NCBI GenBank assembly: GCA_902608415.1
Contig: CACLNZ010000006.1
Coordinates: 1-62,793 of the forward strand
Direction of reading: 5' to 3'
From: an uncultured PS1 clade bacterium
GTDB lineage: Bacteria; Pseudomonadota; Alphaproteobacteria; MED-G09
DNA: 62,793 nt
The position numbers and the translations under genes were made by a program. The notes under the pieces were generated by a model. It did not search any database and had not been told where the DNA came from. It worked only from the letters and a program-made list of their open reading frames with translations. Shown one piece after another: positions 49,973 to 55,507 of this stretch; within the stretch, counting starts at the first letter, position 1, and each line of letters starts with the position of its first letter.

Positions 49973-51319
49973 ATGAGATATTTACCATTAACTAAAAACG
50001 ATAGAGAAGAAATGTTAAGCACTATTGGGGCAAATAACATTAATGAACTTTTTTCCAATATTGCTGAAAAAGTAAGTATTAATCCAAAATTTAATTTACC
50101 TAATCATAAAACCGAAATGGAAGTAGAAAAACATTTATCTCTTTTGTCTGATAAAAATCTTCACGCAGATAATAGTAGTTTTTTTATAGGCGGTGGATCA
50201 TACAAACATCATATTCCTGCAAGTGTAGATCATATTATTCAGAGATCTGAATTTTTGACTTCATATACCCCATATCAACCAGAAATATCGCAGGGTACAT
50301 TGCAATATTTGTATGAATTTCAAACTCAGGTATCTCTCTTAACTGGCATGGATATTTCTAATGCATCTATGTATGACGGGTCAACCGCTGCTGCTGAAGC
50401 AGTATCAATGGCGAAAAGAATAACTAAAAGAAATGGGGTTATTTTATCAAATACGATCCACCCCCATTATGCAGATGTTATCAAAACTGTATCTGGAATT
50501 AAAGATACCGATTTTATTTACAATAGAAAATTTTCTATCGAGATTGATCATTTATTCAATGAGGTTGATGATAATACTGCTTGTGTAGTCGTTCAAAATC
50601 CTGACTTTTTTGGTTCTTGTTACGATTTATCATCATTATCAAAATTTGTTCAAAGTAAGGGAGCATTACTTATTGTTGTTGTAACTGAAGTTTTATCATT
50701 AGGAATGATGAAATCTCCAGGTACAATGGGTGCTGATATTGTCGCATGCGAAGGTCAATCCCTTGGGAATCCTATGAATTTTGGAGGACCATATGTAGGC
50801 TTGTTATCAACAAAGAATAAATATTTAAGACAAATCCCTGGAAGGATTGTTGGAGAGTCTGAGGATGTTGATGGAAAAAAAGGTTTCGTATTAACATTGT
50901 CAGCAAGAGAGCAACATATTCGAAGAGAAAAGGCTACATCAAATATTTGTACAAATTCAGGACTATGCAGTCTGGCATTTACAATTCACTTAACACTTCT
51001 TGGTGAAAAAGGCTTTAAGAGGCTTTCAAGGCTTAATCATGAATCAGCATTAAATTTGAAAGAAAAAATATTAAAAATCCCAGAAGTTAAATTGTTAAAC
51101 AAAAGTTTTTTTAATGAATTTACTATCGAACTACCAATTAAAGGCAAAGTATTTGTTGATAGAATGGCAGAAAAAGGTGTTCTAGCAGGTATACCGGTAT
51201 CAAGATTGATTAATAATAATAAAGAATTAGATAATTTTATCGTGGTTGCTAGCACGGAAACTAATACAGAAGATGATATGAATTCATATATTGAATCAGC
51301 AAATGAGGTTTTAAGATGA
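49973..51319 (+). CDS. gcvPA: Glycine dehydrogenase (decarboxylating) subunit 1
   Basis: RYLPLTKNDREEMLSTIG, YTPYQPEISQGTLQYLYEFQT, YDGSTAAAEAVSMA. Confidence 0.97.
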   Translation: MRYLPLTKNDREEMLSTIGANNINELFSNIAEKVSINPKFNLPNHKTEMEVEKHLSLLSDKNLHADNSSFFIGGGSYKHHIPASVDHIIQRSEFLTSYTPYQPEISQGTLQYLYEFQTQVSLLTGMDISNASMYDGSTAAAEAVSMAKRITKRNGVILSNTIHPHYADVIKTVSGIKDTDFIYNRKFSIEIDHLFNEVDDNTACVVVQNPDFFGSCYDLSSLSKFVQSKGALLIVVVTEVLSLGMMKSPGTMGADIVACEGQSLGNPMNFGGPYVGLLSTKNKYLRQIPGRIVGESEDVDGKKGFVLTLSAREQHIRREKATSNICTNSGLCSLAFTIHLTLLGEKGFKRLSRLNHESALNLKEKILKIPEVKLLNKSFFNEFTIELPIKGKVFVDRMAEKGVLAGIPVSRLINNNKELDNFIVVASTETNTEDDMNSYIESANEVLR

Positions 51320-52812
51320 AAAATTCGAATAAAGGTCTAAATCACGATGAACCAATATTGTTTGAAATTGGTGGTATGGATAAAACTGGAGTTGATCTTA
51401 ATGAACCAACATTTGAAGAAAATCTTATTGGTGATTGTTTTGAGGATCGAGAAATTGGTTTACCTGGATTAAGCGAGCCTGAGTCAATTAGACATTATGT
51501 TAGATTATCAAGAAAGAACTATTCAATTGATGCAGGTCTTTATCCTTTAGGTTCATGCACAATGAAGCATAATCCAAGACTAAATGAGAAATTGGCAAGA
51601 TTAAAAGGATTTTCTGAAGTTCATCCACTTCAACCCTTATCAACATGTCAAGGTGCTCTTGAACTTATAGATGAAATTTCGATTTGGCTAAAAGAATTAA
51701 CAGGAATGAAAGCTGTTACTATGACTCCAAAAGCTGGCGCTCAAGGTGAGCTTTGTGGAATGCTTGCAATTAAAAAAGCAATAGAAGCAAGAAATGAGTG
51801 TCATCGAACTAAGGTTTTGGTTCCTGATTCTGCTCATGGTACTAACCCTGCAACTGCTGCTTTTTTAGGTTTTGATGTTGTAACAATAAAATCTGATAAA
51901 AATGGTAGATTGAATTTTGATGATTTTAAAGAGAATGTAGATAAAAACTTTGCTGCAGCAATGATTACAAATCCAAATACATGCGGTCTTTTTGAGGACG
52001 AAATTATTGAAATAGCAAATTACATTCATGATGCAGGTGGTTATTTATATTGTGACGGAGCCAACTTTAATGCCCTAGTTGGCAAAGTTAGGCCTGGTGA
52101 TTTAGGTATTGATGCTATGCATATAAATTTACATAAAACATTTTCTACACCTCATGGCGGAGGTGGACCAGGATCTGGTCCAGTTGTTTTTTCTGATATT
52201 TTAAAGGAGTTTTGTCCAGCTCCACTTTTAAAAAAGGATGAAGATAATTATTATTTAGTTGAAAATCATAATGATAAAGATATTGATAAATCTTTTGGTC
52301 GGCTTTGTGTTTTTCATGGCCAAATGGGAATGTTCGTTAGAGCCTTATCTTACATGATGAGTCATGGTTCTGACGGTTTAAGGCAAGTTTCAGAAGACGC
52401 AGTTCTGAATGCAAATTATATTAAATCTTCATTAGAGGATATTTTAACGCCTGCTTATGAAGGATATTGTATGCATGAAGTATTATTCAATGACGATTTT
52501 TTAAGTGGAACGGGTGTTGAGACAATTGATTTCGCAAAGGCTTTAATAGATAAAGGTTATCATCCAATGACAATATATTTCCCGCTTGTTGTTCATGGAG
52601 CATTGCTAGTCGAACCAACAGAAACTGAGTCAAAGAATTCTATTGACCAATTTATTGAAACTATTAGGGAATTAGCCTCAAAAACTCAAGATGGAGAAGA
52701 ATTCTTTAAGAAGGCGCCAATTTATACTCCCATTAGAAGATTAGATGAAACGAAAGCCGCAAGAAATCCAGTTTTAAGATGGCAAAAGAATGATGTAATT
52801 GCAGCAGAGTAG
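51316..52812 (+). CDS. gcvPB: Glycine dehydrogenase (decarboxylating) subunit 2
   Basis: GLPGLSEPESIRHYVRLSRKNYSIDAGLYPLGSCTMKHNPRLNE, HINLHKTFSTPHGGGGPGSGPV. Confidence 0.97.
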   Translation: MKNSNKGLNHDEPILFEIGGMDKTGVDLNEPTFEENLIGDCFEDREIGLPGLSEPESIRHYVRLSRKNYSIDAGLYPLGSCTMKHNPRLNEKLARLKGFSEVHPLQPLSTCQGALELIDEISIWLKELTGMKAVTMTPKAGAQGELCGMLAIKKAIEARNECHRTKVLVPDSAHGTNPATAAFLGFDVVTIKSDKNGRLNFDDFKENVDKNFAAAMITNPNTCGLFEDEIIEIANYIHDAGGYLYCDGANFNALVGKVRPGDLGIDAMHINLHKTFSTPHGGGGPGSGPVVFSDILKEFCPAPLLKKDEDNYYLVENHNDKDIDKSFGRLCVFHGQMGMFVRALSYMMSHGSDGLRQVSEDAVLNANYIKSSLEDILTPAYEGYCMHEVLFNDDFLSGTGVETIDFAKALIDKGYHPMTIYFPLVVHGALLVEPTETESKNSIDQFIETIRELASKTQDGEEFFKKAPIYTPIRRLDETKAARNPVLRWQKNDVIAAE

Positions 52813-53426
52813 TGCCCGATTTTTCTGTTGAGGATAAAAAAAGACAATTAGATTTTATTAATATTGCTGGTGTAGATGAGGCGGGAAGAGGTCCTTGGGC
52901 TGGACCAGTTTATTCAGCAATCGTTATTTTAAATAGGAACTGTATACCTGAGGGTATAAATGACTCTAAAAAAATTTCTGAAAAAAAACGTATAGAGCTA
53001 TATGAAGAAATCCTTATAAATCATAAATATGGTATAGGTTTCGCTTCACCAGATGAAATAGACCAATTAAATATCCTCGAGGCTACATTTCTTTCTATGC
53101 GAAGAGCATTAGAAAACCTTATTATAAAGCCTGATTATATTCTTGTAGATGGGAATTTGAGTCCAAGTTTTAATATTCCTCATGAAAGTATAATAAAAGG
53201 TGACAGTATCTCAATGTCAATTGCTGCAGCATCAATAATTGCTAAAGTTGAAAGAGACAAATTTATGTTAAATATCGATAACGAATACCCAGAATATAAA
53301 TGGAAAAAAAATAAGGGATATGGAACAAAAGATCACCAAAATGCATTAAATGCTCATGGTGTAACAAAATACCATAGAAAATCATTTTCTCCCATTCGCA
53401 AGATATTGAGTCTTTCAGCGGACTAA
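52812..53426 (+). CDS. rnhB: Ribonuclease HII
   Basis: GVDEAGRGPWAGPVYSAIVIL, INDSKKISEKKR, ASIIAKVERDKFM; GTG start. Confidence 0.96.
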   Translation: MPDFSVEDKKRQLDFINIAGVDEAGRGPWAGPVYSAIVILNRNCIPEGINDSKKISEKKRIELYEEILINHKYGIGFASPDEIDQLNILEATFLSMRRALENLIIKPDYILVDGNLSPSFNIPHESIIKGDSISMSIAAASIIAKVERDKFMLNIDNEYPEYKWKKNKGYGTKDHQNALNAHGVTKYHRKSFSPIRKILSLSAD

Positions 53427-53452
53427 TGACTCAACATATAGATAATTGAATC
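53408..53452. promoter_or_regulatory. Three GANTC (predicted CcrM) sites at 20-bp spacing upstream of ccrM
   Basis: GAGTC 53408-53412, GACTC 53428-53432, GAATC 53448-53452 read directly from the sequence. Confidence 0.6.
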
Positions 53453-53493
53453 AAATAATAATTCTTGGAATATATTTTGTTGACCAAATATAA

Positions 53494-55507
<2,014 letters not shown>

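Follow-up and report, generated by a model that had tools for sequence, protein, structure and literature searches.

CcrM timing is central to the cell cycle of alphaproteobacteria. In Caulobacter the ccrM promoter is activated by CtrA and is probably sensitive to methylation. The locus described here raises in a concrete form the question of how the gene is controlled in lineages that have no CtrA, of which there are many. In the window (the whole stretch of DNA analysed, 62.8 kb) three GANTC sites, whose starts are exactly 20 bp apart, lie upstream of ccrM, and the original prediction saw in this regular phase a methylation-sensing element for autoregulation. What do these sites belong to, and what sets their spacing? 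Our analysis makes it probable that the three sites are part of a compound regulatory element of ccrM, in which an NrdR-type box-pair operator located upstream of a sigma70-like, nearly leaderless promoter would couple the gene to NrdR.

The ccrM locus and its host

The product of the gene at 53518-54633 (forward strand) was assigned to the CcrM family of adenine methyltransferases because both the N6_N4_Mtase domain and the RAMA domain are present (PF01555, PF18755). It is similar over its full length to Caulobacter CcrMI, its best solved relative (6pbd, E = 1.7e-142). The longest frame starts from 53512, and comparison within the family favours the ATG at 53518. GANTC occurs 134 times in the window versus about 210 expected from dinucleotide shuffles, thus it is depleted, as in CcrM-bearing genomes. 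This depletion and the homology of the enzyme suggest that the host CcrM methylates GANTC. The upstream neighbour rnhB, coding for ribonuclease HII, occupies 52812-53426 on the forward strand and ends with the stop codon TAA at 53426; its predicted GTG start at 52812 overlaps the last base of the frame 51316-52812. No terminator was found ahead of ccrM, therefore transcription read-through from the upstream genes into ccrM is possible.

The host is an OCS116/PS1-clade alphaproteobacterium, the closest named genomes being those of the OCS116 cluster/PS1 clade. Its order was represented by 18 genomes (G000-G017) belonging to three genera; some of them are incomplete assemblies, and the six that are at least 90% complete are concordant for GcrA and NrdR as well as for the lack of CtrA. 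CcrM, GcrA and NrdR (TIGR00244) were each found in 16 of the 18 genomes, and the host has all three. No CtrA ortholog was detected in any of the 18, the top matches showing only about 32-38% identity; across the class, the same query recovered CtrA from 76 genomes out of 114 (typical identity 60-87%). The query was the Caulobacter sequence, and matches as close as 87% identity in other parts of the class show that it works. Of the 80 further families with CcrM that were examined, 26 likewise lacked CtrA at the threshold used. The lack of a recognizable CtrA in the order explains why no CtrA box is visible at ccrM, as had been noted from the sequence, and control of ccrM by CtrA was rejected on the same ground. 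The locus resembles the Caulobacter ccrM promoter in having GANTC sites nearby, but differs from it in that, with no CtrA found in the order, other factors must control ccrM. In one species of the window's genus there is, in addition, a CcrM-like methyltransferase that is distantly related (38% identity; locus L097, G006 contig 19).

Position and conservation of the GANTC sites

The three sites are exactly where they had been predicted, all on the forward strand: GAGTC (site 1) at 53408-53412, GACTC (site 2) at 53428-53432 and GAATC (site 3) at 53448-53452. Sites 2 and 3 are intergenic as described, but site 1, which had also been placed between rnhB and ccrM, is inside the 3' end of the rnhB frame. 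The triple with two 20 bp steps is unique in the window, and it is also the sole equally spaced triple at any interval from 6 to 60 bp. When the same number of sites was placed at random, at least one such triple was obtained in 2.7% of the placements (P = 0.027). Three GANTC sites within 45 bp, whatever their spacing, are unremarkable in the window (P = 0.34). Two more pairs of GANTC sites 20 bp apart, 22612/22632 and 24451/24471, are both located within reading frames.

Conservation in close relatives, which had been proposed as a check, differs between the sites. Each of the 16 ccrM loci in the order, the window included, has site 2, whose conservation is 1.00 in eight representatives. Site 1 is kept in the window's genus and in the sister genus and is missing from the third. 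Site 3 is a genus-level feature, found in six of the seven loci of the window's genus and lost in one species. As site 1 is absent from one genus and site 3 is confined to genus level, ccrM in the order can function without the complete triple. The ccrM loci of the window's genus align without gaps, which means that within the genus the spacing is inherited and alone says little. The full triple with 20/20 spacing also occurs in Tepidicaulis marinus (at -107, -87 and -67), and a 20/19 version occurs in some sphingomonads; an equivalent of site 3 is present in Tepidicaulis and in some sphingomonads.

A pair of NrdR-type boxes upstream of ccrM

A palindrome near the end of rnhB was first seen in the alignments. 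It is perfect in some genomes (ACACAAGATATTGTGT) and resembles the NrdR box. Two NrdR-type boxes of 16 bp can be recognized in the window: box 1, TCGCAAGATATTGAGT, at 53396-53411 (core CAAGATATTG, 53399-53408), which overlaps the rnhB coding sequence and site 1, and box 2, ACTCAACATATAGATA, at 53429-53444 (core CAACATATAG, 53432-53441), which overlaps site 2. In each box a C and a G nine bases apart enclose an AT-rich palindromic core. The two cores are 33 bp apart and the spacer between the boxes is 17 bp. Core pairs at 33 bp that match CWANATNTWG with zero mismatches in both boxes are present in 16 of 16 ccrM loci of the order, and the pair at ccrM is the only perfect core pair at 31-33 bp in the window. 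In the alignment of eight representatives conservation was 0.96 for the core of box 1 and 0.81 for that of box 2, which is conserved even though it is noncoding, in contrast to the linker between sites 1 and 2 (0.52). Box 1 overlaps rnhB codons (KIL/KML), so its conservation may be due in part to constraint on the protein.

The position of the boxes offers an explanation for the spacing of the GANTC sites. Site 1 lies at the inner edge of box 1, its first base being the last of core 1. Site 2 lies at the inner edge of box 2 and has its last base in common with the start of core 2. With the cores 33 bp apart, this geometry yields the 20 bp step. Site 3 is on the outer side of box 2, so that sites 2 and 3 bracket it. 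If the boxes form a paired NrdR-type operator, the 20 bp steps follow from its spacer and box length. A GAGTC/GACTC pair 20 bp apart within a box pair was also found in Tepidicaulis marinus, several sphingomonads and the families G105 and G119. Tepidicaulis marinus and Novosphingobium taihuense are cultured carriers of the element.

The 16-bp motif was written after the ccrM upstream sequences had been viewed, and the first enrichment count was partly circular. Independent tests were provided by ribonucleotide reductase (RNR) loci, which had no part in defining the motif, and by the distribution of distances between cores (see below). Every one of the 12 RNR loci read in the order (L204-L215) has the motif pair ahead of the RNR frame, with the cores 31 bp apart and a spacer of 15 bp; the window's own genome, whose RNR gene is split over contigs, is not among them. 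The reductases encoded at these loci are of about 670-690 amino acids. None of the 12 RNR loci has GANTC flanking the boxes: box 2 starts with ACTC in most of them and is never preceded by G, hence no GANTC is formed. GANTC at the box edges appears to be particular to ccrM, because the RNR boxes are without it.

Comparison of ccrM upstream regions across the class

Upstream regions of ccrM were taken from 80 genomes, one per family (L114-L193). At least one GANTC within 150 bp of ccrM was found in 67 of the 80 families, and at least two in 56. The mean number per 150 bp was 3.1 in families with CtrA and 2.2 in families without it, versus 0.72 and 0.63 expected; this is about four times the expectation, and the density drops past 150 bp. 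These counts support a regulatory role of the GANTC sites at ccrM, as had been proposed, but the reading of the 20 bp phase as a sign of methylation sensing found no support in the form in which it was given. Pairs of sites at 18-22 bp were not enriched class-wide (31 versus 26.6, P = 0.19), the enriched spacing being 9-11 bp (44 pairs versus 17.2). Class-wide 20 bp phasing was dropped, and the step seen here is better accounted for by the NrdR-type box pair.

Core pairs at 31-33 bp, with at most two mismatches, were detected upstream of ccrM in 15 of the 80 families, that is in only about one fifth, versus 0.17 in shuffles and one in the far-upstream control. When all spacings between 20 and 50 bp were considered, 31, 32 and 33 bp gave 9, 6 and 3 pairs, respectively, and the others about one each. 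Cores 31-33 bp apart correspond to spacers of 15-17 bp and so match the range of strongest NrdR binding: four NrdRs bind best at spacers of 15-17 bp, the same spacers repress in vivo, and the spacers of NrdR operators range from 14 to 17 bp (or from 24 to 27 bp) between 16-bp boxes (PMC12051234). The occurrence of the pair showed no clear association with the loss of CtrA (9 of 54 families with CtrA versus 6 of 26 without). Among the 15 loci GANTC overlapped the edge of box 1 in three and that of box 2 in four, versus about 0.4 and 0.9 expected, as estimated from the mean density of 0.029 sites per base; class-wide, this overlap is suggestive only.

The predicted core promoter

The core promoter of the class was obtained by anchoring the ccrM upstream regions on TTGAC, which was found in 60 of the 80 loci (58 usable) versus 9.7 in shuffles. 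The consensus is TTGAC-N17-CAnnnT, CAnnnT coming 17 bp past the hexamer, and it offers concrete sites for mutation in cultured species. The GANTC sites of the class cluster in the -35/-10 spacer, at +8/+9 (26 loci) and at +19 (29 loci) from TTGAC. In 29 of the 58 loci the start codon is 35-38 bp from TTGAC, which is the class peak and suggests that the ccrM mRNA is often leaderless across the class.

In the window the corresponding sequence is TTGACC-N17-GAGGAT. The predicted -35 element, TTGACC (53480-53485, forward strand), is aligned in all loci of the family. The predicted -10 element, GAGGAT (53503-53508, forward strand), follows 17 bp after it, is invariant in the eight representatives of the order, and may double as the Shine-Dalgarno sequence. 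The position of these two elements predicts a transcription start at 53514-53516 on the forward strand, and with 38 bp from TTGAC to the ATG at 53518 the ccrM mRNA in the window would be nearly leaderless if this start is used. The spacer GANTC sites of the core promoter have been lost in the window. There is no GANTC within 53453-53574, an interval comprising the predicted core promoter and start, and this absence is relevant only if the predicted promoter is the one in use. The box pair ends about 36 bp ahead of the predicted -35. Counted from the likely start at about 53515, the three sites are at about -107, -87 and -67, upstream of the predicted core promoter and not in the leader.

Alternative explanations

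The GANTC sites could also be part of a methylation-dependent promoter of the GcrA/CcrM type, where they would recruit GcrA and sigma70 RNA polymerase, as at Caulobacter ctrA P1. The host has both GcrA and CcrM, and the class-wide clusters at +8/+9 and +19 occupy the spacer position that is linked to activation at 40-60 min in Caulobacter (PMC4287350). Like the GcrA/CcrM promoters of Caulobacter and Brevundimonas (PMC3667746, PMC7987155, PMC4287350), the locus combines GANTC sites in the promoter region with the presence of CcrM and GcrA. One spacer site is kept in most loci of the third genus, but the window's genus has no GANTC between -35 and -10; here the sites are at the boxes, about 30-70 bp further upstream, and the triple ends about 28 bp upstream of -35. 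A distal promoter of this type, GACTC-N8-GATAAT, with GATAAT at 53441 beside site 2, was rejected, since it has no conserved -35, promoter-like matches are at chance level, and box 2 is the better description of the conserved block around site 2. We consider a GcrA-dependent promoter a rather unlikely source of the pattern.

That the triple consists of ordinary GANTC sites inherited among close relatives, with the 20 bp spacing a coincidence devoid of function, would agree with the gap-free alignment of the genus and with the statistics of the window (P = 0.027 for an equally spaced triple and P = 0.34 for a cluster of three). We consider it very improbable, as site 2 is kept in three genera though the linker has diverged, GANTC clusters ahead of ccrM across the class, and the GAGTC/GACTC pair recurs within the box pair in Tepidicaulis, in sphingomonads and in a further two families. 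The inner arms of the boxes form a perfect inverted repeat of 7 bp, TTGAGTC-N15-GACTCAA, extended to 13 bp in one sphingomonad locus (L063), and the paired palindrome might be the operator of another regulator or an RNA hairpin. The hairpin was dropped, since folding of 53400-53520 was no better than that of shuffles (z = -0.23) and no terminator was found. Another regulator is difficult to reconcile with the occurrence of the same double palindrome at all 12 RNR loci, where it lies upstream of the gene and its spacers agree with those of NrdR operators, and the two possibilities together seem very unlikely to us.

Possible coupling of ccrM to the nucleotide pool

NrdR is a repressor of RNR genes. 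It binds with dATP and ATP and kinks the DNA at each box (PMC9110341). If the sites belong to a compound element with an NrdR-type operator, as we favour, dATP/ATP-loaded NrdR would occupy the boxes at ccrM, and its occupancy would couple ccrM transcription to the DNA-precursor pool. Since the bases at the box edges are at the same time putative targets of CcrM, methylation and NrdR occupancy could affect each other, creating a feedback. As the boxes lie upstream of -35, activation and DNA bending have to be considered on a par with repression; a positive role of NrdR has been described for topA of Pseudomonas in exponential growth (PMC4409342). The sequence data suggest that a marine bacterium without CtrA ties DNA methylation to the supply of DNA precursors. 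If ccrM does have a conserved NrdR-type operator, there would be a direct link between the nucleotide pool and DNA methylation.

A more far-reaching model, which we offer tentatively, is that in CtrA-less alphaproteobacteria a methylatable NrdR operator switches ccrM, and that this epigenetic loop reads the nucleotide pool. When replication slows, precursors would accumulate and dATP/ATP-NrdR would bind the paired boxes; CcrM would then methylate the box edges and thereby reset NrdR binding.

With two palindromic boxes, C and G nine bases apart and a distance of 31-33 bp, the predicted operator is similar to the NrdR operators at RNR genes (PMC9110341, PMC12051234), and the same motif is found at the RNR genes of the same order. 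It differs from them in fronting a DNA methyltransferase gene, in having CcrM sites as its edges, and in the length of the spacer, which is 17 bp at ccrM and 15 bp in the RNR pairs. Unlike in typical NrdR repression, the boxes are upstream of -35 and not over it. A related situation is known for MucR, which shields GANTC sites from CcrM and leaves them hypomethylated (PMC5172544). At ccrM, too, GANTC sites lie in the predicted binding region of a factor, and binding and methylation may compete; the factor is a different one, and the gene is ccrM itself. In our search no relevant paper naming NrdR and ccrM together was found; the 2005 paper on the NrdR regulon was outside the search, and priority is uncertain.

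NrdR-type boxes elsewhere in the genome

Single boxes matched the host genome at 77 places versus 36 in the reversed control, too many for defining an NrdR regulon from them. Upstream of gcrA, an NrdR pair is a candidate only, with one strong box, a second that overlaps a likely -10, and two mismatches in most loci. The gcrA upstream regions (L228-L239, L098, L100 and L101) contain a conserved NrdR-box-like sequence, ACTAYATCTTGT, and, 31-32 bp further on, ATACCATATAT, which could be either a second box or simply the -10 element.
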